The notes below the pieces were generated by a model. That model was given only the letters and a program-made list of their open reading frames with translations, was not told the origin of the DNA and searched no databases. The translations under genes and the position numbers were made by a program. Of a stretch of 64,000 bases of DNA, positions 28,304 through 49,059 are shown one piece after another; the stretch's first letter is position 1, and every line of letters begins with the position of its first letter. Source of the stretch: Glycomyces salinus (GTDB lineage Bacteria; Actinomycetota; Actinomycetes; Mycobacteriales; Micromonosporaceae); contig NZ_JAELXW010000014.1 of NCBI RefSeq assembly GCF_016428645.1, positions 1-64,000 of the forward strand, given 5' to 3'.

Positions 28304-29100
28304 CGCTCGCACCGGTCAGCGACGAGCGGGCGCCGATCGCCCGGGCCAACCCGATCGCGAAGGTTGCCGCCGCCGCGCTCGTCTCGACGACGGCGCTGCT
28401 GGCGGGGGACTGGCTCACGCCGCTGCTCCTGCTGGCGGCGCTGGCCGCGATCGTCCCATTCACGGGAATCCGGCCCGGGCCGCTGGCCCACCGGCTCAAG
28501 TGGCTGTGGCTCGCGGCCGGGACCGTGACGGCGGTGAACACGCTGTTCGCCGCCGAGAAGACGGGGACGACCCTGCTCTCCGCCGGGCCCCTTCAGATCG
28601 CGAGCGACCCGCTGATAGACGGTGCGGCGCTGGGGCTGCGGGTGTGCGTGGCCGCCACCGCCGGCGTCCTCGGATTCGCCACCACCGACCCGACCGACCT
28701 GGCCGACGCGCTGACCCAGCAGCTGCGCACCTCGCCCCGGTTCACCATCGGCTCCCTGGCGGCCCTTCGCATGCTCCCGCTCCTGGGCGCCGAATGGCGG
28801 CAGATCACCACCGCCCGCCGGGCCCGCGGCATGGAAGGGGGCCGCAACCCGATCCGCCGGGCCCGGCTGTTCGCCTCCACGATGTTCACGCTCCTGGTGG
28901 GCGCCCTGCGCCGCGCGGGCCGCCTGGCGATGGCCATGGACGCCAGGGGCTTCGACTCCGCCGTGCCGCGCACCCACGCCAGGACCCAGCGCATGCGCCG
29001 CGCCGACTGGCTGATCCTGGCCGCCGCCGCGGCCGTGTCGATCGCGGCGGTGGCGCTGAGCGTCGCGTACGGCACTTTCAAAGTATTGGTGTCAACTTAG
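28297..29100 (+). CDS. ykoC: ECF transporter transmembrane (T) component, 3' end altered by an IS605-type insertion
   Basis: 267 residues; ATG overlaps the ATPase stop by 7 bp. EcfT family: membrane segments in the first half and the coupling helices with the double Ala-Arg-Gly signature, RARGMEGGRN (about 185) and AMDARGFDSA (about 215), which bind the two ATPase domains. The final helix ends GTFKVLVST. The last codons and TAG stop (29091-29100) are inside the right end of the tnpB element, so the native C-terminus was longer or different. Coupling and membrane regions are intact, so the protein is probably functional. Confidence 0.92.
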   Translation: MLTLAPVSDERAPIARANPIAKVAAAALVSTTALLAGDWLTPLLLLAALAAIVPFTGIRPGPLAHRLKWLWLAAGTVTAVNTLFAAEKTGTTLLSAGPLQIASDPLIDGAALGLRVCVAATAGVLGFATTDPTDLADALTQQLRTSPRFTIGSLAALRMLPLLGAEWRQITTARRARGMEGGRNPIRRARLFASTMFTLLVGALRRAGRLAMAMDARGFDSAVPRTHARTQRMRRADWLILAAAAAVSIAAVALSVAYGTFKVLVST

Positions 29101-29210
29101 CTCCGCTGTGAACGACGGAGCTTGTAGGTGGTGTCTGCGGCTGGCTGCCGCAGGCGCCCCTACGTCCACCATCATCCGGCTTCGGGTGATGGAGGGACGC
29201 GTGACTGGCG
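29091..29210 (-). ncRNA. Candidate omega-RNA / right-end hairpins of the tnpB element
   Basis: Three consecutive hairpins overlap and follow the tnpB 3' end: CCATCATCCG/CGGGTGATGG (29169-29178 with 29183-29192, one G-U pair, spanning the stop codon), TGCGGC/GCCGCA (29136-29141 with 29147-29152) and AGCTCCG/CGGAGCT (29099-29105 with 29116-29122), then TTGAC. In characterised TnpB systems the guide RNA scaffold comes from just this position, and the guide is the DNA immediately past the right end, here beginning accaatactttgaaag, i.e. the ecfT 3' end on the opposite strand. Expression is inferred. Confidence 0.55.
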
Positions 29211-30341
29211 CCCCGCTGCCCACGCGGTCTCGCCGCGAGCGGCGATGTTGCGGGAAGCATTCCGGTCGGCATGGGCAACGACCCCGCACGACCGGCACCG
29301 GAATACGGCCTGATTCGGCCGGTTCCGCTTATCGACATGGTGGCAGTAGGAGCATTCCTGGCTGGTGTAAGCCGGATCGACGAACACGACCGGCACCCCT
29401 GCACGTTTGGCCTTGTAGGCGATGAACGCCGCCAGTTGCGCGAACGGCCAGGAATGGATTGCGGCCCGTTGGGGCTTGCGGAGCCGTACCCGCTCACGGA
29501 GACCCTTGAGCTCTTCAAGGGCGATCCCGTGCCCGGTGCGTTCAGCCTCGGCCACAATCCGCTTCGATACTCTGTGGTTGACATCCTTGGTCCGGCGCTG
29601 CTCCTTGCGGCGCCGGATCTTCAACAGCCGCTTCGCGGCCTTGGTGCCCTTGGCCTGCAGCTTCGCGCGCAGCTCGGCCTCCCGCTTGCGCTGGCGGTTG
29701 CGGCCCCGGCTGGAGCGGACCCTCCCGTCCGAAGTGGTCGCGATGTTCACGATCCCCAGATCCACCCCGAGCCAACCCGACGGTTGGTCGTTCATGGCCG
29801 CTTCGGGGACCTCGCAGGTCGCGGCCAGGTAGAATTCCCCGTCGCGGCAGACCAGGTCGGTTTCACCCTTGCGAAAGTCGCGCAGCACCTTGAAATGCTC
29901 GGCCGAGCCGACGATGGGGATGCCCTTAACCCGGCCCTCGACCGTCCAGATCGAGACCGTGCCCGAGTCAAGGTCCCAGGACAGGCACCGGTCATCGAAA
30001 GGTTGGGCTGCATCGGGCCGGAAGGCGATCGGCTTCGCGGTGGCCTTGGCCCGCCGCCGAGAACCGGGCTTCCCGAGGTGCCCGGCCCGACCGTTGGCGT
30101 GCAGGGTCGTGTAGGCATCGCGGACTTTCTTGATGACATGCTGGGCGGCTTGCGATCCCAGTCCGCGTTCACGCAGTTCACGGTAGGTGTGCGCCCGCAG
30201 CGCGTACTCGCGCGGCACCCCGCGGGCGAAACACACCGCTGAGACCAGGTTCGCGGCCTCGTTGGCCGCCGCCAGGGTCGCACCCAACGCCCGCGCCACC
30301 TCCGGGGCGGATACGAGCTTGACCGTGACGGTGACCTTCAC
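29172..30341 (-). CDS. tnpB: RNA-guided endonuclease TnpB (IS605 OrfB)
   Basis: 389 residues. RuvC-like nuclease residues are intact: Asp in LGVDLGIVN (about 192), Glu in ALEELKGLRE (about 275), Asp in HADRNASRNIA (about 359). The zinc ribbon is CSYCHHV...CRSCG. The N-terminal half holds the OrfB helix-turn-helix region (AANEAANLVSAVCFARG, HTYRELRERGLGSQAAQHVI). Basic segments such as RRKEQRRTKDVNHRVSK fit guide-RNA binding. I use the GTG at 30341; 24 more codons are open upstream. Family members cut DNA next to a TTGAT-type motif using an RNA from the element's right end, and so help the element persist. Confidence 0.92.
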   Translation of the reverse strand: MKVTVTVKLVSAPEVARALGATLAAANEAANLVSAVCFARGVPREYALRAHTYRELRERGLGSQAAQHVIKKVRDAYTTLHANGRAGHLGKPGSRRRAKATAKPIAFRPDAAQPFDDRCLSWDLDSGTVSIWTVEGRVKGIPIVGSAEHFKVLRDFRKGETDLVCRDGEFYLAATCEVPEAAMNDQPSGWLGVDLGIVNIATTSDGRVRSSRGRNRQRKREAELRAKLQAKGTKAAKRLLKIRRRKEQRRTKDVNHRVSKRIVAEAERTGHGIALEELKGLRERVRLRKPQRAAIHSWPFAQLAAFIAYKAKRAGVPVVFVDPAYTSQECSYCHHVDKRNRPNQAVFRCRSCGVVAHADRNASRNIAARGETAWAAGRQSRVPPSPEAG

Positions 30342-30545
30342 GCCCGCAACCCTAGAGCCAGGGTCCGACAATCCAGAGCGTCCCGAAACCTGCCCCGTTA
30401 TGATCCAGCACACAAACCACCATGGCGCCCGACGGATTTGGACCGTCCCGGCGAGTCTGGGACAGTCTCTATGGGACCCGGGTTCCTCCCAGGGTTAGAG
30501 TCCCGGGGCTCCTCCGAATCAACGCTGAAGCGGCTCAGAGTTCGA

Positions 30546-31202
30546 TCAAGATCCGGTCGGCTCGCCGCCCAGTCGGCGATCGAGTGCGTCGAGGATGATG
30601 TCGAGGCCGCGGTCGAACTCCGCGGCGAACGAGTAGTCGCCTCCGGTGATGAGCTCCCGCGCGAGCCAGGCCAGGTCGGGGTACCCCTCGAGCGCGGCCG
30701 TCATCTCGGCCGCGAAGTCGGAGGCGCCGGAGTCGGCCTCGAACGGCAGGTTCCGCTCGGTGAGCGCGAACCCGTACACGTACGCGTCGATCATCGAGAA
30801 CGCCCGCGAGGCGAGCACCGCCGAGAATCCGCCGCGCCGCAGGCATCCGATGACGGCGTCGTGGTGCCGCAGCAGCGCGGGCCCGGGGTTCGCGCGCGAT
30901 TCGATCAGCGTGAGCGCCCACGGGTGCCGCGAGAGGACTTCGCGCGCCGAGACCGCCCGCCGCCGCATGCCCTCGCGCCACGGCGCGTCCCGGTCCGGGA
31001 GCTCGATCCCGGTGAAGATCCAGTCGGCGAGCCCGTCGAGCAGGGCCTCCTTGCCGGCCACGTGGTGATAGAGCGACATGGCCTCGACGCCGAGCTCGCG
31101 GCCGACGGTGCGCATGCTGAGCGCCGGTAGCCCGCCGCGGTCGGCGACCGCCGCCGCCGCCTCGATGACTCTTGCCCCGGTCAGCGGTTCGCGCTGGTTC
31201 AT
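30546..31202 (-). CDS. TetR/AcrR family regulator with TetR_C (class-I) ligand domain
   Basis: 218 residues starting MNQREPLTGARVIEAAAAVA; HTH ALSMRTVGRELGVEAMSLYH followed by HVAGKEALLDGLADWIF, the classical tetracycline-repressor form. The C-terminal part (FSAVLASRAFSMIDAYVYGF..., FAAEFDRGLDIILDALDRR) is TetR_C_1-like. AAGGGGG ribosome site at the ATG 31202. It is divergent from the oxidoreductase at 31276 with two CTTAC-N4-GTAAG operators between them. Its stop is about 23 bp from the tnpB element's left flank. Confidence 0.92.
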   Translation of the reverse strand: MNQREPLTGARVIEAAAAVADRGGLPALSMRTVGRELGVEAMSLYHHVAGKEALLDGLADWIFTGIELPDRDAPWREGMRRRAVSAREVLSRHPWALTLIESRANPGPALLRHHDAVIGCLRRGGFSAVLASRAFSMIDAYVYGFALTERNLPFEADSGASDFAAEMTAALEGYPDLAWLARELITGGDYSFAAEFDRGLDIILDALDRRLGGEPTGS

Positions 31203-31218
31203 GCATCCCCCTTGCGAT

Positions 31219-31266
31219 CTTACGAGTGTAAGGATACTATTCCCCAAAGAGGCTTACACCTGTAAG
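31219..31266. promoter_or_regulatory. Two CTTAC-N4-GTAAG operators
   Basis: CTTACGAGTGTAAG (31219-31232) and CTTACACCTGTAAG (31253-31266) are 14-bp inverted repeats with identical arms, 34 bp apart centre to centre (about three helical turns). They occupy the 73-bp divergent region; the second ends 9 bp before the oxidoreductase ATG. Best explained as binding sites of the TetR at 30546-31202, repressing both directions. Confidence 0.75.
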
Positions 31267-31275
31267 GGGAATCTG

Positions 31276-32241
31276 ATGAGAGCCGCATTCGTCGATCGGT
31301 ACGGGCCGCCGGAACGGATCACCATCACCGAGACGCCGCCGCCCGAGCCGCGCAAGGGAGAAGCGCTGGTCCGCGTCGAGGCCGCCGCGGTCACCGCCGG
31401 CGACGCCCGCATGCGCGCCGGACGCTTCCCGAAGGGGTTCGGCGCGCTGGCGCGACTCGGGATCGGCCTCCGCGGCCCCCGGGCCCGCACCCTGGGCGGA
31501 ACGCTCTCCGGCCGGGTCGAGAAGGTCGCGCCGGACGTCACGCGCCTGGCCCCGGGAGACCAGGTCGCGGGCATGACCGGTGCGCGAATGGGCTCGCACG
31601 CCGAATACGTCGCGGTCCCGGCCGCCGCGCTCGTGTACAAACCCACGGAGGTGAGCCACGCCGACGCCGCCGCGGTTCTCTTCGGCGGCACCACCGCACT
31701 CCACTTCCTCCGCGACCGGGCCGAGGTGGCGCCCGGCGACACCGTCCTGGTCAACGGCGCCTCCGGCGCGGTCGGGACGAGCGCGGTGCAGCTCGCCCGC
31801 CACTTCGGAGCGAAGGTCACGGCGGTGACCAGCGCGCGGAACCGGAGCCTCGTGGCCGACCTGGGCGCCGGGCGGGTGATCGACTACGCGGAGACCCCGG
31901 TAGCGCGGCTGGAGGAGCGGTTCGACATCGTCTTCGACGCGGTCGGGAACATCACCCGCGCCGAGGGGCTGCGCCTGCTCAACCCGTCCGGATCGCTGAT
32001 CCTGGCGGTCGCGGGACTGCTCGACACCGTACTCGCCCGCGGACCGGTGCTCGCGGGCCCGGCCCCCGAACGGGCCGAGGACTTCGCGTTCCTGCTCGAA
32101 CTCGCCGCGAGCGGCGACCTCGACCCGGTGGCCGAGGTCGTCGGCGGACTCGAAGCCCTGCGCGAGGCCCACCGGCGCATCGACACCGGGCGCAAGGTCG
32201 GCAACCTCGTGATCGCGCCCGGAATGGACGGCACGCCATGA
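31276..32241 (+). CDS. NADP-dependent zinc-free alcohol/quinone oxidoreductase (MDR family)
   Basis: 321 residues. GroES-like N-terminal domain (MRAAFVDRYGPPERITITET; VRVEAAAVTAGDARMRAGRF), then the nucleotide-binding motif VLVNGASGAVGTSAVQLARH (about 157-176). The zinc ligands of alcohol dehydrogenases are absent, as in quinone oxidoreductases. The region AVLFGGTTALHFL and the final IDTGRKVGNLVIAP are standard. Probably reduces quinones or enones; controlled by the divergent TetR. Overlaps the next gene by ATGA. Confidence 0.93.
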   Translation: MRAAFVDRYGPPERITITETPPPEPRKGEALVRVEAAAVTAGDARMRAGRFPKGFGALARLGIGLRGPRARTLGGTLSGRVEKVAPDVTRLAPGDQVAGMTGARMGSHAEYVAVPAAALVYKPTEVSHADAAAVLFGGTTALHFLRDRAEVAPGDTVLVNGASGAVGTSAVQLARHFGAKVTAVTSARNRSLVADLGAGRVIDYAETPVARLEERFDIVFDAVGNITRAEGLRLLNPSGSLILAVAGLLDTVLARGPVLAGPAPERAEDFAFLLELAASGDLDPVAEVVGGLEALREAHRRIDTGRKVGNLVIAPGMDGTP

Positions 32242-32624
32242 CCGTCGAACGCGAACGAGTCGTGCTCGCGGGCGGCTGGACCAGCCTGATGCTCATCTAC
32301 CTGCTCGGCGACGTGCTCCGGGTCTTCGCCGGCCATTTCGAGCCCGGCCGGATGGGCGGCGAGCCGGTGCCCGAGTGGATGTGGACCCTCGCCGCCGGGA
32401 TCATGATGGTGCCGATCGCGATGATCATGACCTCGCTCCTGGCGGCGGCCCGGCCCCTGAGCTGGATCACCATGGGCACCTCGGCGGCCCTCGCCGCGTT
32501 CAACCTCTCCGGCCTGCCCTACCAGGGTTTTTTCGACGACATGCTGATCGTCCTGAGCGTCGGCATGAACGCGCTGATCGCCTGGCTCGCCTGGTCCTGG
32601 AAAACCGGTGCCGCGTCAGCGTGA
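32238..32624 (+). CDS. Small four-helix membrane protein (DUF6326-like)
   Basis: 128 residues with four hydrophobic segments: LMLIYLLGDVLRVFAGHF, TLAAGIMMVPIAMIMTSLLA, ITMGTSAALAAFNLSGL and LIVLSVGMNALIAWLAWSW. The early acidic Asp in LLGDVLRV and the PVPEWMW loop resemble the DUF6326 family. Function unknown; ATGA overlap with the oxidoreductase gene means the pair is co-translated and co-regulated by the TetR. Its 3' end overlaps the convergent UbiB-type gene by 9 bp. Confidence 0.75.
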   Translation: MTVERERVVLAGGWTSLMLIYLLGDVLRVFAGHFEPGRMGGEPVPEWMWTLAAGIMMVPIAMIMTSLLAAARPLSWITMGTSAALAAFNLSGLPYQGFFDDMLIVLSVGMNALIAWLAWSWKTGAASA

Positions 32625-34595
32625 GTCGTCCCGGGCCTTGTTCTTGGTGAAGATGTCGGCGAGGACCCTGAGCGCCATGACCGAGCCGATCAGGAGCAGC
32701 GTCAGGCCGATGAACGGATAGAGCCCCAGGTCCTCGCTGATGTCGGGTCCGGTGTCGATGCCGATGAGGATCACCGACATCAGGCCCGAGGCGGCGGCCA
32801 GGATGGTCAGCAGGGCCTGGTGCAGCCAAGCGGTGACGGTCCTGCGGTCCTCGGAACGGGAGAACAGCCGCAGGTTCGCGGTCAGTCGCCCGGCCTCGGC
32901 CGCGGCCGCCAGCCGGTCGAGGCGGCGCGGCAACTTGCGCAGCACCGGCAGCAGGTCGGCGGCCTCCTCGGTCAGCATGTCCCTGACCGCGGTCGGGCGC
33001 ATGTGGTGCTCGGCGTACGCCTCGCCCGCGCGGCGGGCGTGCGCCACCAGGTCGAAGCGGGGATCGATCGCCGTCAGGCATCCTTCCAACGTGGCCAGGG
33101 CCCGGAAGACCGCCGCGAGCTCGGGCGGGATCGCGATGCGGTACTTGGCGATGATGCGGAACAGCTCGGTGAACATGCGGATGTCCGGGGACGAACCGGC
33201 CATGAGATGGCGCGCCATGAACGAGCCGAGCGCCCGCTCGAACGCGACCTGGTCGAGCTCGTCGGGGCGGGTCGAGACGCCGATGAGGGCGTCGGCGAGC
33301 GCGGGGCCGTCCTGGCGGTCGACGGCCATGAGGATCGCCTGGAGCGAGGTACGCAGCTCGCGGTCGAGCCGGCCCACCGAGCCGTAGTCGATCAGTCCGA
33401 GCTTGCCGTCCTCGAGCAGCAGCAGGTTGCCCGGGTGCGGGTCGGCGTGGAAGATCCCGTCGATCATGATCTCGTCGAGCATCTCCCGCAGGAGCGCGGC
33501 CGCGATGGGCCCCGGCTCCAGACCGCGCTCGGCCAGGACCGGACCGGCCGAGGAGAGCGGGACGCCCGTGAAGCGCTCCATGACCAGCACGCCGTCGTCG
33601 GACAGGTCCGGGTGGGGCCGGGGGATGCGGACCGCGGAGCGGCGCCGGTCGTGCGCGGCCGCGACCTGAGCGAGATTGCGGGCCTCGACGGTGAAGTCGA
33701 CCTCCTCGCGCAGTGCGGCCGCGAACCCGGCCGCCAAACCGAGGACGTCCATCGAACGCCCCCAGGCGGTGCGCCTGTCGATCAGGCGGGCCAGGCGCTG
33801 AATGATGTCCAGGTCCCGCTCGATGGCCTCGGCCGCGCCCGGGCGGCGGATCTTCACCACGACCGCCTCCCCGCCGTGCAGGACAGCACTGTGGACTTGA
33901 GCGACCGAGGCCGCGGCCATCGGCTCCGGGTCGAACTCGGCGAACACCTCTTCGAGCGGCGCGCCGACCGCCTCCTCGACGAGAGCGGCGGCCGTCGTCC
34001 CGGAGATCGGGGCGGCCTGGTCCTGCAGTTTCGCCAGCTCGGCGATGTACGCGGACGGCAGCAGGTCCCGCCTGGTGGAGAGGATCTGACCCAGCTTGAC
34101 GAACGTGATCCCCGCGTCGTCGAGCGAACGGCGGAGCGAGCGGGCCATCTCGGCGTCCTGGCCGATCTGCCGCCGCCCCCGCAGCAGCCCGATCAGGCCG
34201 TGCCTGGAGGCGACGGCGAGGATCTGAAGGTACCGGCGGGAGCGCCGGACCCTCGTGCGCAGCCCCTTGAACCAGCTCCTGACCGGAGGGACCGTGCCGG
34301 TCGGAACGACCGCCTCCCAGATCACCAGCAGAATCATCGCGATCACCGGCGCGCACACCACCGCGAAGGCCAGCAGCGCGATGGAACCGGGCAGTTCCTC
34401 AGGATTCGGCGCGCGGTCTCCGTACGGCTCGAACATCACCGGGATGAGACCGTGCTGGACGATCGTCTGGCCGATCATGCTCACCACGAGCAGCCGCCAC
34501 AACGTGTAGTGGACATCGAGAAGTCTGGCCGTCACGTACGCGACGATGGAGGAGTTGACGACGAGACCGAGCACGTAGATGAGCAGAAAAGTCAA
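32616..34595 (-). CDS. ABC1/UbiB/AarF family atypical kinase with membrane anchors
   Basis: 659 residues. Two N-terminal hydrophobic segments (LLIYVLGLVVNSSIVAYVTA; IALLAFAVVCAPVIAMILLV), the ABC1 signature FVKLGQILSTR (KxGQ, about 163-170), the Ala-rich loop AAASVAQVH, VVVKIRRPGA, the catalytic HADPHPGNLLLLEDGKLGLIDYG (about 385-407), and two C-terminal hydrophobic helices. UbiB-type proteins bind ATP and act in prenyl-quinone or lipid metabolism. The start is a TTG at 34595 with a GGAGGG site 9 bp upstream; no ATG exists nearby. It has no operon partner. Confidence 0.9.
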   Translation of the reverse strand: MTFLLIYVLGLVVNSSIVAYVTARLLDVHYTLWRLLVVSMIGQTIVQHGLIPVMFEPYGDRAPNPEELPGSIALLAFAVVCAPVIAMILLVIWEAVVPTGTVPPVRSWFKGLRTRVRRSRRYLQILAVASRHGLIGLLRGRRQIGQDAEMARSLRRSLDDAGITFVKLGQILSTRRDLLPSAYIAELAKLQDQAAPISGTTAAALVEEAVGAPLEEVFAEFDPEPMAAASVAQVHSAVLHGGEAVVVKIRRPGAAEAIERDLDIIQRLARLIDRRTAWGRSMDVLGLAAGFAAALREEVDFTVEARNLAQVAAAHDRRRSAVRIPRPHPDLSDDGVLVMERFTGVPLSSAGPVLAERGLEPGPIAAALLREMLDEIMIDGIFHADPHPGNLLLLEDGKLGLIDYGSVGRLDRELRTSLQAILMAVDRQDGPALADALIGVSTRPDELDQVAFERALGSFMARHLMAGSSPDIRMFTELFRIIAKYRIAIPPELAAVFRALATLEGCLTAIDPRFDLVAHARRAGEAYAEHHMRPTAVRDMLTEEAADLLPVLRKLPRRLDRLAAAAEAGRLTANLRLFSRSEDRRTVTAWLHQALLTILAAASGLMSVILIGIDTGPDISEDLGLYPFIGLTLLLIGSVMALRVLADIFTKNKARDDSR

Positions 34596-34717
34596 GAACT
34601 CGGGCCCTCCAGATCACACCGACATCCGATTCCGCCACAGGCTACTTCACCAGGGCGCGCCAGGAGCGGATCGCCGGACGCGCCATGCCTCTTCGCCGGT
34701 TCGGTTCTTTTCAGAGA

Positions 34718-35146
34718 CTAGGCTTCGATGGCGGTGCGGAGGGCGGCGACTAGCGGGTCTTCGCTCGGGGTGTTCAGGTCGGCCAGGAAGACCGCGGCCA
34801 GGCGGGCGTCCGGGGACAGTTCGGAGTGCCGCGCTTGCCAGGCCCACAGGTTGGGGTGCTGATAGGCGTCGCAGGCTTCGGCCGGGGCGAGCAGATCGAT
34901 CGCCTTCGCCAGGTCGTCGCGGGTCATGCGGTGGGAGCCGGTCTCGCCCCGGCATTCGCACACCGTCGCCAGCACCACCGCGGGCAGGGCGTGGTCACGG
35001 GTGTTCACGCGGAAGAAGTCGATCCTGCTGTTCTCGTCGATCTCCCCGAGCCCGAAGGCGGCCGGGGTCCGCCAGCCGGGGATGGCCGCCTCGAATCGCA
35101 GGCGGGCGTTACGGATGTCGTCTACGGTTTCCCAGCGTTCGGTCAT
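34718..35146 (-). CDS. Uncharacterised cytosolic protein
   Basis: 142 residues from the ATG at 35146 (MTERWETVDDIRNARLRFEA). No signal peptide or membrane segment. Notable stretches: IPGWRTPAAFGLGEIDENSR, FFRVNTRDHALPAVVLATVC and HRMTRDDLAKAIDLLAPAEA. Family not recognised; composition and codon use are typical of the host, so it is likely real. It follows the UbiB-type gene's promoter side with about 120 bp between and is not in an obvious operon. Confidence 0.65.
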   Translation of the reverse strand: MTERWETVDDIRNARLRFEAAIPGWRTPAAFGLGEIDENSRIDFFRVNTRDHALPAVVLATVCECRGETGSHRMTRDDLAKAIDLLAPAEACDAYQHPNLWAWQARHSELSPDARLAAVFLADLNTPSEDPLVAALRTAIEA

Positions 35147-35190
35147 GGCCCGATCCAAGCAGCCACGCCGCAGCATGGCAAGAGGGTTTG

Positions 35191-35219
35191 GGCGGCCCCG
35201 GTCTCAGATCGGGGCCGCC
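35191..35219 (-). terminator. Terminator of the ABC exporter operon
   Basis: A perfect 10-bp stem GGCGGCCCCG/CGGGGCCGCC (35191-35200 with 35210-35219) with a 9-nt loop begins 11 bp past the stop of the minus-strand exporter gene at 35231. Confidence 0.75.
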
Positions 35220-35230
35220 GTCGGGTGCCT

Positions 35231-38832: not shown

Positions 38833-38844
38833 AAAATTGACCAG

Positions 38845-38882
38845 GTACAAATTTTTATCTAGTACAAATTTGGATCTGGTAC
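38845..38882. promoter_or_regulatory. Three GTAC half-sites at 17-bp spacing, TetR operator region
   Basis: GTAC occurs at 38845-38848, 38862-38865 and 38879-38882, exactly 17 bp apart. The first two are followed by AAATTT, making an AT-rich near-repeat between the exporter operon and the TetR gene. Two overlapping 21-bp GTAC-flanked sites result. They lie 9 bp upstream of the TetR start and probably bind that regulator. Confidence 0.6.
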
Positions 38883-38891
38883 ACTGAAAGT

Positions 38892-39710: not shown

Positions 39711-39720
39711 ACTGGCCGCC

Positions 39721-40341: not shown

Positions 40342-40346
40342 GACGG

Positions 40347-41183
40347 CTATGCGGGCCGTGATGCCTTGAGAGAGAACATCAGCGGCACACGCGGCTGCCC
40401 CTTCGGGGCGCGGAAGAGGCCGTCCTCGCCCTGCTCCAGGGTCGCGTAGCGGTGGAACATGGTCACGTCGTGCTCGTGGAGGAACTCGATGCGCAACCCG
40501 GTCGCCGCGAGCGAGCTGACGATGTCGCCGAGGGTGTGCATCCGCTCGAAACTGAGGTTCTGGGCCGTCTCGGCACGCCAGTCCACATAGCTGCCGGGCT
40601 CGTCGGTGACGACCGGGCGGTCGTCGAAGTAATCGGTCTCGATCCTGGTCCCGTCGTCCCCGTCGAGGACGTGGGTGATCGGATGGAACTCCGCGAGGTA
40701 GAGGAACCCGCCGGGCGCCACCAGTGAGGCGGCGGTGGCGGCCCAGCGCTCGATGTCCGGCAACCAGTCCAGGACGCCGATACCGGTGTAGACGATGTCG
40801 TAGTCCCGGTCCGGCAGGGCCGCGGCCGCCTCGTAGACGTCGGACACGACGAACTCGGCGCGGTCGGGCCCGAATCCGATATCGGCGGCCAGGCCGCGGG
40901 CGACCTTGATGGCCGGCTCGGAGAAGTCCAGCCCGACCACCTTAGCCGCGCCCCGTCGGGCCCACGACAGCGTGTCCTGCCCCATATGGCACTGCAGGTG
41001 CAGCAAGCGCTTCCCAGTTACGTCGCCGACCTCTTCGGCCTCGAATTCGCGGATCTCGTCGCGGCCCTTGCGGAAACCGTCGTGGTCGTAGGCGTCGCTG
41101 GCGGCGTGGAGGGGAACCCGCTCGTCCCACATCGCGCGGTTGGCCTCGCGCCATTCGTTCCAGTCGTGTGCGTCGGTCTGCAT
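40347..41183 (-). CDS. Class I SAM-dependent methyltransferase
   Basis: 278 residues. Motif I is LLHLQCHMGQDTLSWARRGA followed by KVVGLDFSEPAI (about 60-95), motif II region DYDIVYTGIGVLDWLPD and motif III ASLVAPGGFLYLAEFHPI. The N-terminal helix WNEWREANRAMWDERVPLHA is typical of a conserved bacterial group of unknown acceptor. GAGGAT ribosome site at the ATG. It lies 40 bp downstream of the P450 gene on the same strand, so the two may act in one pathway. Confidence 0.88.
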   Translation of the reverse strand: MQTDAHDWNEWREANRAMWDERVPLHAASDAYDHDGFRKGRDEIREFEAEEVGDVTGKRLLHLQCHMGQDTLSWARRGAAKVVGLDFSEPAIKVARGLAADIGFGPDRAEFVVSDVYEAAAALPDRDYDIVYTGIGVLDWLPDIERWAATAASLVAPGGFLYLAEFHPITHVLDGDDGTRIETDYFDDRPVVTDEPGSYVDWRAETAQNLSFERMHTLGDIVSSLAATGLRIEFLHEHDVTMFHRYATLEQGEDGLFRAPKGQPRVPLMFSLKASRPA

Positions 41184-41223
41184 TCCGACATCCTCACAGC
41201 GGAGGCCAACTGCGGCAATCCGT

Positions 41224-42528
41224 TTAACGGCGGCGGTAGGTCACCTCGGTGGCCTCGGGCCACTTCGCGCCCTGGCCGGGTATCGGCTGCGGATCGGGAT
41301 TGCGCAGTTCGAAGTCGTAGCGCTGGAGCAGCCTGGCCAGCACCACCGTCATCTCCAGGTACGCGAACCGCATCCCCAGGCAGCGGTGCAGACCGCCGCC
41401 GAAGCCGATGAGGCGGCGCAGCTGACGGGGATCCTCGACGTACCGGTCGGGACGGAAGGAGTCGGGATCGGGGAACTCCTCTTCGAGCCGGTGCGTCATC
41501 GCCGGTGAGATCATGACCAGCGTCCCGGCCGGGATCTCCCGGCCGTCGACCTCGAACGGCTCGACCGCGCTGCGCACGTTCATCGGCGCGACCGGGTGCA
41601 GCCGCTCCGACTCGTGCAGGCAGCGATCCAGGTGCGCGAGCTTGCGGACGTCCTTGGCGGCCATGGTCTCGGGGACCGCACCGAATCCCTCTCGGGCCCG
41701 ATCGAGCTCCTCGGGATGCTGCAGCAGGTCGATCAGGCCCCAGGAGATCTGCCCGGTGGTCGTCTCGTGCCCGGCCCACACCAGCATGATGATCAGGTGC
41801 AGGAGGATGTCGTCGGGCACCGGCTCGCCGTCCTCGTACGCGGCCTCCACGAAGTAGTCGAGGAAGTCCTCGCCGTCGCCGGGGTTCGCCCGCCGCTTGT
41901 CGACGATCTCCTGGAGTCGCCGCCGGATCCGCTTGCCCGCCGCGCGGCTGCGCAGGAGGTGCGGAGCCGGCAGCCATCCGGGCGTGACGAAGTCCGCTCC
42001 CTCCGAGAAGCGGCGGAACTCGCCGAACCAGTCGGTGGTGGTCTCGGCGAAGCGCTCACCCAGGAAGGAGCGCGCGGCCACCCGCATGATCAGCGGGCCG
42101 AAGTCCTCGGGAATGGACAGCTTGCCCGCCTCGCCCATGCCGTCCATGAAGGAGCGGACCTCGTGCTCCATGACCTCCACGTACGTGTCGAGCTGGCGGC
42201 CCTGGAATCGCGGCAGGACCACGTCGCGTTGGCGCTTGTAGTCGTCGTAGGGGGCGAAGAAGTAGAAGTCGGGGCTGAACATCCGCAGGAAGAACGGATA
42301 GGCGGTGCGGATCGACAGCTTGCGGTCGGTCTCGGAGTAGGTGAGCTTGTTGTTCTCGGTGCCCAGCAGGACCACGGTGTCCTTGAGCGGGAGGCGGAGC
42401 CGGAACATCGAGCCGTGCTCGGCGTGGCCGCGCCGGAACAGCCCGAGGGGGTCCCGCGTGAGCTCGGCGGCGTGGCCGACCACGGGACGCGCTCCTGAGA
42501 CGGTGGGAATCAGGGTGCTGCTATTCAT
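41224..42528 (-). CDS. Cytochrome P450 (CYP51-like group)
   Basis: 434 residues, soluble. I-helix oxygen-binding motif WAGHETTTG (about 250), K-helix ExxR in ESERLHPV (about 307), PERF region FRPDRYVED and haem loop FGGGLHRCLGMRFAYLEM with the ligand Cys (about 382). The FGGGxHRC loop and the T-rich I-helix place it nearer to CYP51/CYP120-like than to typical macrolide P450s. No ferredoxin gene adjacent, so redox partners come from elsewhere. Ribosome site GAGGTGA 5 bp before the ATG. Substrate unknown; methyltransferase gene follows on the same strand. Confidence 0.93.
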   Translation of the reverse strand: MNSSTLIPTVSGARPVVGHAAELTRDPLGLFRRGHAEHGSMFRLRLPLKDTVVLLGTENNKLTYSETDRKLSIRTAYPFFLRMFSPDFYFFAPYDDYKRQRDVVLPRFQGRQLDTYVEVMEHEVRSFMDGMGEAGKLSIPEDFGPLIMRVAARSFLGERFAETTTDWFGEFRRFSEGADFVTPGWLPAPHLLRSRAAGKRIRRRLQEIVDKRRANPGDGEDFLDYFVEAAYEDGEPVPDDILLHLIIMLVWAGHETTTGQISWGLIDLLQHPEELDRAREGFGAVPETMAAKDVRKLAHLDRCLHESERLHPVAPMNVRSAVEPFEVDGREIPAGTLVMISPAMTHRLEEEFPDPDSFRPDRYVEDPRQLRRLIGFGGGLHRCLGMRFAYLEMTVVLARLLQRYDFELRNPDPQPIPGQGAKWPEATEVTYRRR

Positions 42529-42721
42529 CTGTCACCTCAAAGGGTCGCTTTGGTCCTCGTCGATGCGATCTGCCGGTGGGGATCAACTCGGCCAATAGCT
42601 AGTCGGCTGGTGGGTTGCCAACTGTGTGCGAATCGTAACCTTCGCCGGGAGGGTCGCGCAACCACCGAGGCCGGAACGTCGGTGGCGGGTCGTACTGTCG
42701 AGACCGCAGAGAGGAGCCGGA

Positions 42722-43291
42722 GTGGCTGAGAATGTGATCGTGGGGGCCGACGGCGTGGCCAGGTGCCCGTGGGGTGCCGAGCCGGAGATCTACCGGGAGT
42801 ACCACGACCTGGAGTGGGGCCGCGCAGTGCGCGGCGACGACGCGCTGTTCGAGCGGATCAGCTTGGAGGCGTTCCAGTCGGGACTGTCGTGGCTGACCAT
42901 CCTGCGCAAGCGGGAGGCGTTCCGGAAAGCCTTCGACGGCTTCTCGGTGGCCAAGGTCGCCGCCTTCACCGAGGCCGATGTCGAGCGCCTGCTCGGCGAC
43001 GCCGGGATCGTCCGCAACCGGGCCAAGATCGAAGCGGCGATCGGCAACGCGCGGGTCGTGCTCGAACTCGACGGCGGACTGACGGACCTGGTCTGGTCCT
43101 TCGCCCCCGAGCCGCGACCACGGCCGAAGTCGATCGACGAGGTCCCAGCGGTGACACCGGAGTCGACGGCGATGGCCAAGGCGCTCAAGAAGCGCGGCTT
43201 CCGGTTCTTCGGCCCCACCACGGCCTACGCGATGATGCAGGCGGTCGGCCTGGTCGACGACCACCTGGCCGACTGCCACGTGAAGCGCTAG
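42722..43291 (+). CDS. tag: DNA-3-methyladenine glycosylase I
   Basis: 189 residues from a GTG start after AGAGGAG. Tag hallmarks: zinc ligands Cys in RCPWGAEP, His in YHDLEWG, and His/Cys in the C-terminal DDHLADCHVKR; catalytic Glu and aromatic pocket in LFERISLEAFQSGLSWLTIL; FGPTTAYAMMQAVGLV near the end. Removes 3-methyladenine from alkylated DNA. Its TAG stop shares the CTAG with the stop of the convergent lacI-type gene (overlap 4 bp). Confidence 0.95.
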   Translation: MAENVIVGADGVARCPWGAEPEIYREYHDLEWGRAVRGDDALFERISLEAFQSGLSWLTILRKREAFRKAFDGFSVAKVAAFTEADVERLLGDAGIVRNRAKIEAAIGNARVVLELDGGLTDLVWSFAPEPRPRPKSIDEVPAVTPESTAMAKALKKRGFRFFGPTTAYAMMQAVGLVDDHLADCHVKR

Positions 43292-44316
43292 CGATCCCTG
43301 ACCGTTGACTCGCGGATGACCAGCCGACACGGCAGCGTCCGCACCCCGCGGTCGTGCTCGTCGTCGATCGCGTCGAACAGGGCTCGGGCGGCGGCGCGCC
43401 CCAGCTCCTCCAGATTGGGGTCCACACTGGTCAACTGGGGCCGGGAGCCGGTCGTCAGCACCTCCCAGTTGTCGAAGCCCAGGACCGCCACGTCCTCGGG
43501 AACCGTCCGGCCGTGTTCGCGCAGCGTGTCCAGGACGCCGCGGGCGACCTGGTCGTTGCCGCACACCACCGCGTCGACCTCGGGATGTCGGTCGATCAGC
43601 ATTGCGGCCGCCGCCCTGCCCCAGCTTTCGGTCCACGAACCGTAGGCGACCTCGCCGACCGGCTCCAGGCCCGCCTCGGTCAGTGCCTCCGTCGCGCCGA
43701 CGTCGCGGTCGCGGGCGGCGCTGTAGTGCCGGTCGCCGCTGATGTGCGCGATCCTGGTGCGCCCGCAGGCGACCAGGTGCTCGATGGCCATACGGCCGGC
43801 GCCGACGTTGTCGGGCACGATCGACTGGTCCTCGGGATCCTCGGAAGGGGCGTAGGCGTAGACGACCGGCACGTCCACCCGATCTGCCAGCTTGGGGCGG
43901 GGGTCCGTGCTGGAACCGACCACGATCAGGCCATCGACCCGGCGGCTGACCAGCGCCTGCACATGGTGGCGCTCCCGGATCGCATCTCCACGCGCGTCGC
44001 AGAGGAACACCGAGACCTGCCCGGCGCCGAAGGCGTCCTCGGCGCCCATCAGGATCGGAAGACTGAACCGGCCTGAGAGGTCGGTGGTGAGCAGACCGAC
44101 CGTGCCGCTGCGTCCGGCCAGCAGGCCCCGGGCGAGCGAGTTGGGGGAGAACTGGAGCTGCGCGGCGGCCTCGAACACTCGTTCGCGGGTCTGCGAATGC
44201 ACATGGTTTCGGCCGTTGAGCGCCTTGGAGGCGGTGGAGACCGAGACGCCCGCCAGTTTGGCGACGTCTGACAACGTGGCGGTACGGGCGCCGCGTGAGC
44301 CGGTCGGTCTGGTCAT
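43288..44316 (-). CDS. LacI family regulator of the arabinoside-type glycan locus
   Basis: 342 residues. HTH and hinge at residues 14-62: TLSDVAKLAGVSVSTASKAL and RERVFEAAAQLQFSPNSLAR; then the sugar-binding domain (GTVGLLTTDLSGRFSLPILM, VSRRVDGLIVVGSS, VCGNDQVARGVLDTLREHG, VAVLGFDNWEVLTTGSRPQL). Perfect AAGGAGG site 6 bp from the ATG at 44316. It is divergent from the large glycosidase gene. Two promoters of this locus carry the same operator-like CCGAAAACCTTTTC, which this protein most likely binds. Confidence 0.93.
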   Translation of the reverse strand: MTRPTGSRGARTATLSDVAKLAGVSVSTASKALNGRNHVHSQTRERVFEAAAQLQFSPNSLARGLLAGRSGTVGLLTTDLSGRFSLPILMGAEDAFGAGQVSVFLCDARGDAIRERHHVQALVSRRVDGLIVVGSSTDPRPKLADRVDVPVVYAYAPSEDPEDQSIVPDNVGAGRMAIEHLVACGRTRIAHISGDRHYSAARDRDVGATEALTEAGLEPVGEVAYGSWTESWGRAAAAMLIDRHPEVDAVVCGNDQVARGVLDTLREHGRTVPEDVAVLGFDNWEVLTTGSRPQLTSVDPNLEELGRAAARALFDAIDDEHDRGVRTLPCRLVIRESTVRDR

Positions 44317-44450
44317 GGCGTCCTCCTTCGGTCCCGGTCGTCCTTCGTTGCAGGTAGTGACGGATCGACTGTAGCCGATCTTCGGAAAACCCGCCCAACC
44401 GGCTTTCGTGGCGGACCGAGCGTCGAGTTGTGGACTCCCGTGAGTCTGCA

Positions 44451-44511
44451 TTGACATCGGTCCATGAATGGCCGTAGCATGTCCTGCATGATGGACCGAA
44501 AACCTTTTCGG
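44451..44511 (+). promoter_or_regulatory. Promoter and operator of the multidomain glycosidase gene
   Basis: TTGACA (44451-44456) and TAGCAT (44475-44480) are 18 bp apart, close to consensus. A palindrome CCGAAAACCTTTTCGG (44496-44511; arms CCGAAAA/TTTTCGG) lies about 10 bp after the predicted start point. The same core recurs at 49363-49376. Position downstream of the promoter implies repression. Confidence 0.75.
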
Positions 44512-44571
44512 TAGTTTTCGGTTCGCGATCCCACCCTTCCGAATGACCAGCAAATCCCTCGGAGGCACGCC

Positions 44572-47500
44572 ATGGCGCACCGTCGACCGTCATCGAACCC
44601 CTCGACCACCGGAGGAACACCCCGCATGAACCTGCCGATCTCCCGCCGAACCGCGCTCCGCCTGGGAATCCTGGCCGGGGCCGCTCCGGCCTTCTCCGCA
44701 ATCGCCGCCACCGGGACCGGGCCCCGCCTCGCGTCGGCGCAGCAGACCATCGGCTATCCCGTGTTCGGTGGTGGTGACGCCGTTCCGTCCGAGCCGGTCG
44801 CGTACGTCGTGGACGGGATGATGGAGTCGATGTTCGAGGCCGAGTCCGGTGGCACTGATTTCTGGATAGACCGGTTGCTGGCCCGCGAGGGCGCTGATCC
44901 GGCGGGGGACTGGTTGATGTCCCGCGGCCGGGCCCTGTTGATGCGGGTCCACGACCCGGAGGTGATCGGGTTCGGCGGCCAGTCGGCCTACTACGACCCG
45001 ACGTTCGACCGGTTCAGCAACCGCGACGGCTTCGCGATCACGCTGGGCGACCTGACCTTCAGCGAGGACACCAGTCGGCGGCGGCAGTGCCCGAGCCACT
45101 GGAGGAGTGTCCACACCGGCGGCGGGGACTTGTCGGTCACCGTCCAGAAATTCATCACCCACAACAACGTCGCGGTCGCGAACGTAACCGTGACCAACCA
45201 CGGCGGCGCCGCGACGACGGTCCCGGTCACCGTGGCCTCGGATTTCGCGTGGCAGGCCGACGGCGACGAGCTGACCGGGGTCCTGGACATGCAGAACTCG
45301 CGCGGCCAGCGCCTGACGACGGTCTTCCCGCGCCTGTCCGGCACCGGCCTGACCCCGGTGGACGGGAGCCTGACCGGGGAGATCTCGCTCGGCGCGGGGG
45401 AGTCGGTCACGGTCAAGGTCCAGTTGGGGATGGTCACCGACGAGATCGCGGAGTCGCGCGGCGAGTACGACCGGGTGCGCCAGTCCGGGCCCGAGACGGC
45501 GTTCGCTGATCATGTGCGGGCGTATAACCGGTGGTGGGCCGAGAACCTGCCCTATTTCGATCTGCCGGACGGGGCGTTGAAGAAGTTCGTGTACTACCGG
45601 TGGTGGCTGATGCGGTTCAACCACCTGGACGCCGATATCCCGGGCAATGATTTCCAGTTCCCGACCTCGATCGAGGGCGTCACCGGCTACAACAACGCGA
45701 TCGCGTTGACCGTGCCGATGTTCATCGACGACCTGAAATACCTGCGGGACCCGGTGTACGCCTTCGGCCCCTGGGTCTCCACCGGGGAGTCTTCGGCCGG
45801 GGGCCGGTTCATGGACAATCCCGGGGATCCTGAGAACTGGTCGAACTCCTACACCCAGTACATCGCCGAGGCGGCGTGGCGGTCCTACCAGGTCCACGGC
45901 GGCCAGACCCCGATCGCGGGCAATCTGGCCCGCTACGCCGAAGGCGACGTCAAAGGCCAGCTCGCCACCTTCGACACCGACGGCAACCGGCTGATCGAGT
46001 ACGATTGGGGCGCGATGACCGGCAACGACGCCGACGCGGTCTCCTTCCACTGGCGCTCGGACAACCTCGACCGGGCCGAGTCGGCCTACCAGTACTCCGG
46101 GGCCCTCGCTGCGGCCGCAGCCTACGACCTGCTCGGCGACAGCGCGAAGGCGACCGAAATGCGCGATATCGCCGACGCCATCGCGGCAGCGATCACCGGT
46201 GTGCTGTGGAACCCGGACCGGGCCCTGTTCGAGCACGTCCACGTCGACTCCGGCGACCATGTGCCGTGGAAGGAGATCAACAACTACTACCCGTTCAGCG
46301 TCGGCGCGGTGCCCAACGAGGCCCCATACACCGAGGCGCTGCGGCTGTTCGCCGATCCGGCCGAGTACCCGCTGTTCCCGTTCTACACGGCCAACCAGGT
46401 CGACAAGCAGGCAGCAGCCGAGCAGGGGAACCCGGGGTCGAACAACTTCTCCCAGATCAACTCCACCGTCCAGTTCCGGCTGTTCTCATCGGTGCTGCGC
46501 CGCTACGACACCGACGCGGTCGGGCCTGAGGACTACAAGAAGCTGCTGTATTGGAACGCCTGGGCGCATTTCATCGACGGCGATGTGGCCTGGCCGGACG
46601 CGAACGAGTTCTGGGCCGACTGGAACCCGAGCACCGGCCGGATCGATTACCGGTCGTGGATCCACCACACGATCCTGGGCTCCGGCATTTGGACGATCGT
46701 CGAGGACGCCATGGGCCTGCGGCCCCGCTCGGATCGGAAGGTCGAGCTGTGGCCGATCGATATCGGTTGGGATCACTTCAGCGTGGCCGGGCTCCGCTAC
46801 CGGGACTCCGACCTCTCGATCACCTGGGTCGCCCCCGGCACCGACAACCCGTACCCGGATGTCCCCGAAGGCTATTCGGTGTTCATCAACGGCGACCACG
46901 CCTTCACTCTCGACAGCCTCGCACCAGCCGTGTTCGACCCGCGCAACGGGAAAGTCGAGCTGACCGGAGGCACCGGGGAGGTCCTCTACAGCCACCCCAT
47001 ACCGAAACTGTCGGCCCCCGAACAGGTCGAGCACACCGGCCGAGTCGTCGACATCTTCGCCAAGGCCGGGGTCGACCTGCTCTCCGACGCCGAGAACGTC
47101 GCCTTGGGCGCGTCCGTCGCGGCCTCCCACACCGCCGAAGGCAGCAGCGCCGACGCCGCGGTCAACGGCACCACCATCAACGAACCGTTCTGGAGCGCCG
47201 CCGGGTCCGGCAACTCCACCGACTGGTTCGAGATCGATCTCGGCCGCAAGAAGTGGGTCGACGAGGTCCGGCTCTACTTCTACCGCGACCGCCTGGACGG
47301 CGGCCACCTGGAGCCCGCCTCCTACCGCGTTCAGTACGACGACAGAGGCGACTGGGTCGACGTTCCCGGGCCGACCAAGACCCCGGCGATCCCGCGCGCC
47401 AACTACAACCGCGTCCAGTTCGCGAAGGTCCGGACCGACCGGCTGCGCGTGATCCTGCGCCACCAGTCCGGATACACCACCGGCCTGAAGGAGTTCCAAG

Positions 47501-48744
47501 CCTTCCGCACCAAGGACACTCCCTCTCCGGCCGACAACGTCGCACCCTATGTCGTGGCCCGACACGACTCGTCGTTCAGCAGCCCGCTTCAGGCGCGGCC
47601 GACCGGGACGGTCAAGGACGACGCGCTCCCGCTCGACGGCGAACTGACCAGCACCTGGCGCGCGGTCGACGGCCCCGGCTCGGTCGTGTTCGAGGATGCC
47701 GCCGCGGCCACCACCGTCGCCACCTTCACCGAACCCGGCGAGTACATCCTCGAACTGACCGCCACGGACGGTGAACTCGAATCGGCCTCCACGGTCGCCC
47801 TGACCGTCGCCGAGCCCGACGACCGCGCCAACGTCGCCCCCTCGGCCGAGCCGACCGCCTCTTACACCTCCTCGTGGGAGAACGTCACCGCCGTCAACGA
47901 CGGCATCGAGCCGTCCACCTCCAACGACGGCGCCAACCCCCGCTGGGGCACCTGGCCCGAGGAAGGCGAGCAGTGGGTCCAGCTCACCTGGGACGACCCG
48001 GTGCGCGTCGCCGAGTCCGACATGTACTTCTTCGACGACGGCGGCGGAGTCAGGGTCCCCGCCTCCTGGCGGATCCAGTACCTGGACGGCGAGAACTGGA
48101 CCGACGTGAACGCCAGCGGCACCTACGGAACCGCTCCCGACCAGTACAACAGCGTCGCCTTCACCGCCGTCACCACCACCGCGCTCCGCGCCGTGCTCCA
48201 AAGCGGCGAGGCCAGCGTCGGCATCCTCGAATGGAAGGTCTTCGCCGAGGTCCCCGAGACCGTCCGCCACGTCCACCAGCCGACCGAGGCCGGGACCGTC
48301 CCAGAACTGCCCGCAACCGTCACCGGCGTCTACGCCGACGGCTCCCGGGCCGAGCTCGCGGTCGTCTGGGAGGAGATCGCCGAGGACGACGTCTCCGAAC
48401 CGGCCACCACCATCGAAGTGAGCGGCCTGGTCACCGGGCTCGCGCTCGCCGCGAGCGCCACCGTCCACGTCCGACTCACCGACGAAGTCGAGGTCACCGC
48501 CATCGAGACCGAGGAGGTCACCACCGTCGCCGGGACCGCCCCGCAATTGCCCGGCACCGTCACCGCCGTCTTCAACGACGGCTCGAAGGACAACGTCACC
48601 ACCGCGGTCGCCTGGGCCGACATCGACCCGGCCGAATACGCCGAACCCGGCGAATTCACCGTCGCCGGCTCGGTCGAGGGCACCTCCCTCGAAGCCGAGG
48701 CCGCCGTGACCGTCATCGAATCCGAGTCAACTACCGCCGGTTGA
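44572..48744 (+). CDS. Secreted multidomain glycoside hydrolase-like protein
   Basis: 1390 residues. A twin-arginine signal (ISRRTALRLGILAGAAPAF) indicates folded export. Region about 60-820 resembles an (alpha/alpha)6 barrel of the MGH1/GH63-like type: FWIDRLLAREG, WWAENLPYFDLPD, FVYYRWWLMRFNHLD, FIDDLKYLRDPVYAFG, WSNSYTQYIAEAAWRSYQVH, GNDADAVSFHW. Then a discoidin (F5/8) module (about 840-980), a PKD/Ig-like module (986-1081), a second discoidin-like module (1086-1225) and two Big_4 Ig modules (1225-1383). Two starts have good ribosome sites: ATG 44572 (GGAGG, 6-bp spacing) and ATG 44626. The last six codons lie in mobile-element DNA. The CAZy family is not certain. Confidence 0.85.
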   Translation: MAHRRPSSNPSTTGGTPRMNLPISRRTALRLGILAGAAPAFSAIAATGTGPRLASAQQTIGYPVFGGGDAVPSEPVAYVVDGMMESMFEAESGGTDFWIDRLLAREGADPAGDWLMSRGRALLMRVHDPEVIGFGGQSAYYDPTFDRFSNRDGFAITLGDLTFSEDTSRRRQCPSHWRSVHTGGGDLSVTVQKFITHNNVAVANVTVTNHGGAATTVPVTVASDFAWQADGDELTGVLDMQNSRGQRLTTVFPRLSGTGLTPVDGSLTGEISLGAGESVTVKVQLGMVTDEIAESRGEYDRVRQSGPETAFADHVRAYNRWWAENLPYFDLPDGALKKFVYYRWWLMRFNHLDADIPGNDFQFPTSIEGVTGYNNAIALTVPMFIDDLKYLRDPVYAFGPWVSTGESSAGGRFMDNPGDPENWSNSYTQYIAEAAWRSYQVHGGQTPIAGNLARYAEGDVKGQLATFDTDGNRLIEYDWGAMTGNDADAVSFHWRSDNLDRAESAYQYSGALAAAAAYDLLGDSAKATEMRDIADAIAAAITGVLWNPDRALFEHVHVDSGDHVPWKEINNYYPFSVGAVPNEAPYTEALRLFADPAEYPLFPFYTANQVDKQAAAEQGNPGSNNFSQINSTVQFRLFSSVLRRYDTDAVGPEDYKKLLYWNAWAHFIDGDVAWPDANEFWADWNPSTGRIDYRSWIHHTILGSGIWTIVEDAMGLRPRSDRKVELWPIDIGWDHFSVAGLRYRDSDLSITWVAPGTDNPYPDVPEGYSVFINGDHAFTLDSLAPAVFDPRNGKVELTGGTGEVLYSHPIPKLSAPEQVEHTGRVVDIFAKAGVDLLSDAENVALGASVAASHTAEGSSADAAVNGTTINEPFWSAAGSGNSTDWFEIDLGRKKWVDEVRLYFYRDRLDGGHLEPASYRVQYDDRGDWVDVPGPTKTPAIPRANYNRVQFAKVRTDRLRVILRHQSGYTTGLKEFQAFRTKDTPSPADNVAPYVVARHDSSFSSPLQARPTGTVKDDALPLDGELTSTWRAVDGPGSVVFEDAAAATTVATFTEPGEYILELTATDGELESASTVALTVAEPDDRANVAPSAEPTASYTSSWENVTAVNDGIEPSTSNDGANPRWGTWPEEGEQWVQLTWDDPVRVAESDMYFFDDGGGVRVPASWRIQYLDGENWTDVNASGTYGTAPDQYNSVAFTAVTTTALRAVLQSGEASVGILEWKVFAEVPETVRHVHQPTEAGTVPELPATVTGVYADGSRAELAVVWEEIAEDDVSEPATTIEVSGLVTGLALAASATVHVRLTDEVEVTAIETEEVTTVAGTAPQLPGTVTAVFNDGSKDNVTTAVAWADIDPAEYAEPGEFTVAGSVEGTSLEAEAAVTVIESESTTAG

Positions 48745-48754
48745 TGCCGGTGGT
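48726..48754 (-). repeat. Right-end signature of a degraded tnpB element
   Basis: On the minus strand a hairpin ACCACCGG/CCGGCGGT (48754-48747 with 48740-48733, one mismatch) is followed two bases later by TTGAC (48730-48726). The intact element at 29091 has the same layout: hairpin, 3 bases, TTGAC. The TGA stop of the upstream glycosidase gene (48742-48744) falls in the hairpin loop. Confidence 0.6.
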
Positions 48755-49059
48755 TTGTCGCTCGTGCCCGCCGCTGGCTGCGGCGTATCGGCGACAATAG
48801 GCTGGTTGACAACAGCCCAGGTCATGCGTGCGCGGTCTCGGACGTTGACCGCGGCTACCTGGTCGGCGGCTCCAGCGAGTCCGCAGCCGCCACAGGCGAA
48901 ACCATCTCGATCGGGTCTATTGGCTTTCGTGGCGTGCCCGCAGAGCGGGCACCGTCGCGAGGTGTTGCGGGCATCCACGACCACAACCGGGACTCCGGCG
49001 AGTTTCGCCTTATAGGCGATGAACGCCTGGAGCTTAACCTGCACGACCTGCTTGCCCAT
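48727..49059 (-). pseudogene. tnpB: TnpB C-terminal remnant
   Basis: About 110 codons match the C-terminal third of IS605 OrfB: QAFIAYKAKLAGVPVVVVDA, RNTSRRCPLCGHATKANRPD, FACGGCGLAGAADQVAAVNV. The zinc ribbon (CPLCG...CGGCG) survives. The RuvC Asp appears as AADQVAAVNV, with Asp kept but the ADRNAAxNI motif changed. The first two-thirds, with the other catalytic residues, is absent, so it is non-functional. The stop codon overlaps the right-end TTGAC. It is about 50-60 percent similar by eye to the intact TnpB over this part, so it came from a different element. Confidence 0.8.

Follow-up and report, generated by a model that had tools for sequence, protein, structure and literature searches.

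Introduction

What becomes of a host gene when a mobile element is inserted exactly at its stop codon? This question is raised by two tnpB sequences of Glycomyces salinus, each of which lies antisense to the end of a host gene (ecfT and a glycosidase gene, respectively) in the window studied here, i.e. the whole analysed stretch of 64,000 nucleotides. Judging from the sequences compared below, TnpB elements of the genus Glycomyces are often placed exactly on host stop codons and appear to supply a stop codon of their own, and the gene survives. Such a stop-for-stop exchange by TnpB-only elements of the IS200/IS605 type is regarded as highly probable, although no expression, transposition or cleavage data are at hand.

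That the two elements supply replacement stop codons had been suggested in a first-pass annotation of the window, and the suggestion has gained support: relatives stop natively near the junctions, and the swap recurs at many other genes. The same annotation knew of no description of stop donation by IS605-type right ends; likewise, no description of stop-codon replacement by IS200/IS605 right ends was found in the open-licence literature searched.

The intact element at the end of ecfT

The first locus comprises the following features:

28297 to 29100, plus strand: ecfT (CbiQ family), host DNA up to 29090, with the remaining codons taken from the element
29091 to 30524, minus strand: intact TnpB-only (IS1341-type) element of 1434 bp, antisense to ecfT
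29172 to 30413, minus strand: tnpB of this element, 413 aa, with PF07282 and PF01385 matches
29091 to 29095, minus strand: TTGAC right terminus of the element (GTCAA on the plus strand)
29098 to 29100, plus strand: TAG at which ecfT now stops, contributed by the element (relatives have native stops near the junction)
29099 to 29122, minus strand: right-end hairpin, from single-stranded DNA folding
30525 to 30529, minus strand: TTCAG at the left-end flank (CTGAA on the plus strand)
30526 to 30528, plus strand: ancestral TGA stop of ecfT, inferred from the rebuilt empty site and relative G003 to have been moved 1.4 kb by the insertion

On the minus strand, the element ends with a hairpin (29122-29099), the bases AAG and then TTGAC (29095-29091). 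Folded as single-stranded DNA, the right-end stretch reaches a z of -2.63, with 2 of 200 shuffles folding as well; the z of the left end (30524-30460) is -0.16. The ecfT frame crosses the junction as GT/G TCA ACT TAG (the slash marks the junction), and the C-terminus of the window's ecfT thus carries the extra residues ST before the element's TAG.

The left flank holds the counterpart of this new end. Read on the coding strand, TTCAG is CTGAA, that is, the own stop of ecfT. When both flanks are joined, they read TTG GTC TGA AGC GG, with the protein ending in ..YGTFKVLV before the stop, and relative G003 has TTGGTCTGAAGCG (TTG GTC TGA AGC) at its ecfT end; the rebuilt empty site has the arrangement of G003, without target duplication. 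The idea that the element lies on an inversion breakpoint was rejected, since its left flank continues the stop context of G003 ecfT.

The first-pass annotation had set the left end at 30517 and taken TTGAT as the target site. Neither can be maintained: TTCAG stands at the left edge of the recognisable left end in 11 of the 20 members of the window's element group (read by eye), the left end corresponds to 30524, and the TTGAT at 30518-30522 lies inside it. In the other nine members, the left edge could not be placed; near the expected place, L223 has TTCAC and L240 has CTCAG.

The tnpB remnant at the end of the glycosidase gene

At the second locus, the features are:

44572 to 48744, plus strand: glycosidase gene (MGH1-like GH, F5/8 type C, Big_4), 1390 residues, host DNA up to 48725
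48726 to 49059, minus strand: tnpB remnant with intact right end and a PF07282 match, antisense to the glycosidase gene
48727 to 48729, minus strand: the remnant tnpB's own TGA stop, within TTGAC, in agreement with six of nine close copies
48733 to 48754, minus strand: right-end hairpin of the remnant, from single-stranded DNA folding
48742 to 48744, plus strand: TGA stop of the glycosidase gene, supplied by the element

Here the minus strand reads hairpin (48754-48733), AG and TTGAC (48730-48726), the last base being 48726 and not 48727 as initially annotated. The right-end stretch folds as single-stranded DNA with a z of -2.00 (6 of 200 shuffles fold as well). The glycosidase frame continues over the junction as GA/G TCA ACT ACC GCC GGT TGA, with a tail derived from the element. 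No left end of the remnant was found.

Nine tnpB copies of the genus, at least 79% identical to the remnant, were used to check its right end. The same hairpin and the end AGT TGA C occur in six of them; TTGAT is present in one, and two have a TAG shortly before the right end. L098, only 59% identical to the remnant, also has a TTGAC end with the tnpB stop inside it. By this comparison, the right end of the remnant is an authentic one. The TGA of TTGAC is the stop of tnpB itself and, in consequence, the two convergent genes end inside each other's terminal bases.

Both window elements have a subterminal hairpin at the right end, and the earlier description of these ends (hairpin, two to three bases, TTGAC) is borne out, as are the host frames read through GTCAACT to their respective stops and the difference between both TnpB proteins, which are 48% identical over 90 aa. 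Both PF07282 and PF01385, the latter of which we take to be the RuvC-type part of TnpB, score above the cut-off in the intact protein; in the remnant, PF07282 does. With its RuvC-type and zinc-finger (TNB) domains, TnpB meets the criterion for the IS1341 type. No Y1 transposase adjoins the window elements, and the two Y1 matches of the genome are found on other contigs (C187 and C192).

As a side observation, similar palindromic, operator-like sequences (CCGAAAACCTTTTC..TTTTCGG) are located at 44496-44521 and 49363-49387, where they precede the glycosidase gene and the gene of a sugar-binding protein downstream of the tnpB remnant.

Host gene ends in relatives without the window insertions

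The first-pass annotation had specified that relatives free of tnpB with the same C-termini and stop codons would refute its claim. In that comparison, the C-terminal regions turned out to be alike up to the junction (to within some three codons) and the stops to be native. Specifically, all 21 same-genus relatives end ecfT with a native stop (TGA in 19, TAA in one, TAG in one) at most about three codons away from the junction, 262-265 residues from the first matched residue. In the 12 full-length glycosidases of the genus (L061-L072), the distance between junction and stop is likewise no more than about three codons (TGA in 11, TAA in one). As exceptions, L073 is short and L074 reads on, without a stop at that place; the count leaves out a further, broken glycosidase copy of G016. 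The stop context of the glycosidase is CTGAA in four relatives (L061, L062, L063 and L072), identical to the flank of the window's element group.

Two observations concern the neighbouring genes. In G016 and G010, a gene starting with MTERWETVDD.. follows directly behind ecfT; here it is inverted and about 6 kb off (34718-35176). In the relatives shown, the gene after the glycosidase seemingly starts some 30 bases past the glycosidase stop.

Census of tnpB elements in the genus

A PF07282 search in 22 Glycomyces genomes yielded 156 tnpB domains, of which 124 were chosen and 120 taken with flanks; among the other 36, which were excluded, are weak matches and copies at contig ends. According to their right ends, the 120 can be divided into: (i) a sister group with G[T/C]CAA as right end (63 elements); (ii) the window's group (18 loci, or 20 members with the two in the window); and (iii) others (39 elements). 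A simple codon model, trained on 97 open segments and also used for gene calling, served to judge whether the junction is reached by an antisense host gene, with scores above 25 bits counted as positive.

In the GTCAA-ended sister group, an antisense gene codes up to the junction in 21 of 51 elements. All 21 are in phase 2: the junction falls after two codon bases, the first base of the element completes the codon and TGA comes next. By the codon model, no sister-group element scores in phase 0 or 1. A weak 22nd case (L273) reaches 14.6 bits. The GCCAA end reads TTGG, i.e. no stop, and none of the 12 GCCAA-ended elements is antisense-coupled to a stop, versus the 21 of 51 (Fisher p 0.0055). 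Among the 39 others, five more are alike by eye (L188, L192, L218, L237 and L244). Most right flanks of the 41 non-stop sister-group elements are not coding-like at the junction; those of L241 and L276 look sense-coding, with no start codon nearby, and these two insertions may break genes.

In the window's group, an antisense gene reaches the junction in no more than seven of the 20 members, always in phase 2. Of these seven, five exceed 25 bits, including L220, in which no stop was found in the 120 element bases looked at; the remaining two (L239 and L307) make up one weaker orthologous pair.

Apart from these counts, a short cysteine-containing frame (..DCDCVVHI / ..DCDCVIHG) ends at the insertion that two species have in common in L307 and L239. 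Besides, in eight of the 41 non-stop sister-group elements (L191, L249, L256, L267, L277, L288, L295 and L305), the right end lies 3-19 bases before a coding-like start in the same direction, for which its GGAGGAT-like sequence could serve as ribosome site.

Empty sites of the sister group

The left flank is readable in 12 of the 22 stop-coupled sister-group elements (TCAT in four, TCAC in two, CTAC in six), and in each of the 12 rebuilt empty sites an in-frame stop reappears at the same codon. The hypothesis was already known when these flanks were read by eye, mostly in stop-coupled cases, and the 12 of 12 is not independent evidence; the relatives provide a firmer one.

In the 18 relatives compared, out of 19 without the insertion, FbaA ends in a final lysine and TAA (14) or TAG (4), versus NKIN TGA in the two species with an element (G013 and G007). 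The two elements differ, their TnpB proteins being 34% identical. Similarly, UbiE reads HRGFK TAG in the 10 relatives looked at, as against HRGFN TGA with the element. The PanB relatives are mixed: among the 18 shown, the protein ends in E, D or K, followed by TAG, TAA or TGA, and L332 has a native GAT TGA like that of the element-bearing copy. Finally, the oligopeptide ABC ATPase ends with GCA or GTA TGA in 18 of 19 relatives (the 19th, L463, was left unscored), compared with GCT TGA where the element is present.

As for FbaA, it can be added that the different elements L284 and L218 occupy the same stop codon at the same base in two species.

The ABC ATPase relatives read TGA GC, and their stop overlaps an ATG. 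The insertion splits this overlap: the first gene ends in T-TGA, and the second keeps its ATG, with a GGAGG from the left end of the element 7 bases upstream. A left-end GGAGG 5-7 nt before the next start was found in 5/5 cases of stop/start overlap and in 0/7 others (p 0.0013). An alignment of the left ends was uninformative, and of the 41 non-stop sister-group elements scanned for one left-end pattern, few yielded usable matches.

Proposed mechanism

The swap, its register, the native stops of relatives and the old stop now found beyond the element can be read from the sequences compared; the steps below are a proposal. The element would insert 3' of a short target on its own strand. When it lies antisense to a gene, this target, in reverse complement, can spell one base plus a stop codon: TTCAG (CTGA-A) for the window's group, and TCAT, TCAC, CTAC or TTAC (the last one inferred from relatives) for the sister group, i.e. 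ATGA, GTGA, GTAG and GTAA. The right terminus of the element would then become the new end of the gene. The sister-group end, TCAA, read backwards gives T-TGA in the same register, and so one stop would be replaced by another with only the last wobble base changed. The GTCAACT... end of the window's group would add two (ecfT) or five (glycosidase) extra codons before the element's stop.

Selection is inferred to remove insertions that break genes. After insertion, the right end presumably cannot be deleted without depriving the host gene of its stop, and this would account for the glycosidase remnant having kept exactly that end.

A broader reading, offered tentatively and with slightly less than even confidence, is that stop codons serve a whole class of TnpB elements as insertion sites, which would make the element harmless, self-restoring and not cleanly deletable. 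Its constituent parts, namely (i) target and right-end motifs that are matched antisense stops; (ii) a left end that can give a ribosome-binding site; and (iii) a guide at conserved gene ends, are put forward jointly. Stop-for-stop exchange would offer a simple account of the ends and target motifs found in some TnpB elements, and it suggests how these elements persist in compact genomes and in those where no Y1 transposase was found. It would also mean that the annotated C-termini and stops of several host genes, some of them of core metabolism, are encoded by mobile elements.

Preference, retention and tolerance

The first-pass annotation had left it open whether the elements prefer gene 3' ends or are merely tolerated there. 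A null was obtained from a sample of genus DNA (262,500 bases, 204 called genes), in which 57 sister-group target motifs fall at stops, 987 outside genes and 4894 within them. Against the share of stops among the non-coding or stop sites, 57/1044 (5.5%), the 21/51 of the sister group has a p of 7e-14; with only the four stop-type motifs in the null, p is 2.5e-11, and with the non-coding sites halved (14%), it is 1.5e-6. As for CTGAA, 16 of its 57 non-coding or stop sites are at stops (28%), and the window's group, with at most 7/20, does not depart from this expectation (p 0.32). Consequently, the answer differs between groups: for the window's group, including both window elements, tolerance suffices and there is no excess over harmless sites; in the sister group, stop sites are in strong excess (41% vs 5-14%) and tolerance is insufficient.

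Less certainly, RNA-guided retention could be the source of this excess, because the guide would then fall within conserved coding sequence. According to the available part of the source, TnpB of ISDra2 works with a right-end RNA, the final ~16 nt of which derive from the flank, and its cleavage next to the element's motif is known (PMC8612924). Guiding of TnpB to the empty site by such an RNA is also expected of the IS1341 type. An antisense insertion at a gene end would provide a guide complementary to conserved coding DNA beside the target motif, and TnpB might cut the empty alleles of kin, which would be repaired with the element. The chances of such homing or retention seem nearly balanced, if slightly on the unfavourable side. 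Empty alleles of the ABC ATPase have TCAT in 18/18 relatives and a perfect match to the 16-nt guide in 10/18, and the median mismatches per 16 on the guide side versus downstream are 1 vs 11 for both FbaA and UbiE, 3 vs 11 for PanB and 2 vs 6 for AroB. Furthermore, a Y1 transposase is found in 7/22 genomes, versus tnpB in 20/22. On the other hand, the guide at ecfT is not conserved (9 vs 11 mismatches per 16), the glycosidase shows the reverse (7.5 on the guide side vs 4), and there are no activity data. Conserved guides and scarce Y1 transposases point to retention rather than frequent jumping, in the absence of biochemical data. As a particular case, G010 has 20 tnpB matches and no Y1 match.

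Pure tolerance, with target sites hit at random and survival confined to intergenic and stop-codon insertions, is rather unlikely as the whole explanation. It fits the 7/20 of the window's group and the fact that, by the codon model, no sister-group element breaks an antisense gene in another phase; what it does not accommodate is the sister-group share of 21/51, whichever of the two null shares is taken (5.5%, or 14% with the non-coding sites halved). Lastly, coincidence, whether through mis-set boundaries or divergent gene ends, is a very improbable source of the apparent stop donation: although the element ends were inferred from sequence and the earlier left end was 7 nt off, the consistent phase, the GCCAA control and the relatives all speak against it.

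Comparison with known systems

The papers cited in this section were available only in part, and the statements on their content are limited to those parts. The insertion of IS608 takes place 3' of TTAC, which is kept at the left flank, and its right cleavage site is TCAA (PMC5934647). Like the motifs of the Glycomyces sister group, TTAC and TCAA both hold a stop backwards in the same register and, by analogy, the stop-register property may be general beyond Glycomyces. No coupling to stop codons is mentioned for IS608 in the part of that source available. The stop-for-stop proposal leads to predictions that can be tested in IS608 and in other elements with TTAC/TCAA motifs. The target of ISDra2, TTGAT (PMC2806898, PMC8612924), has no stop in its reverse complement, whereas the intact window element is inserted after TTCAG.

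IS1341-type elements carry tnpB between left and right ends without tnpA, as here, and TCAA is a frequent right cleavage site among them (16/39 elements in one survey) (PMC9956272). In the accessible text of this survey, host stop codons are not discussed and the word "stop" is absent from the main text. Another type of stop-codon involvement has been described for ISLxc2 and ISLxx4 (IS481 family), which likewise have a stop codon within the insertion target; in their case the host site ends the transposase gene, whereas here the element ends the host gene (PMC2516522).

Outside Glycomyces, an antisense TTGA stop was absent from the six loci of other phyla scanned, and all the out-of-genus cases lack rebuilt empty sites. 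Such a stop is present in three of the 19 other actinobacterial loci of the same scan, which leaves out L437 (L417 of Pseudonocardia, L427 of Streptomyces and L431 of Rhodococcus), and in three of the 29 loci of a phylum-wide draw (L479, L488 and L507).
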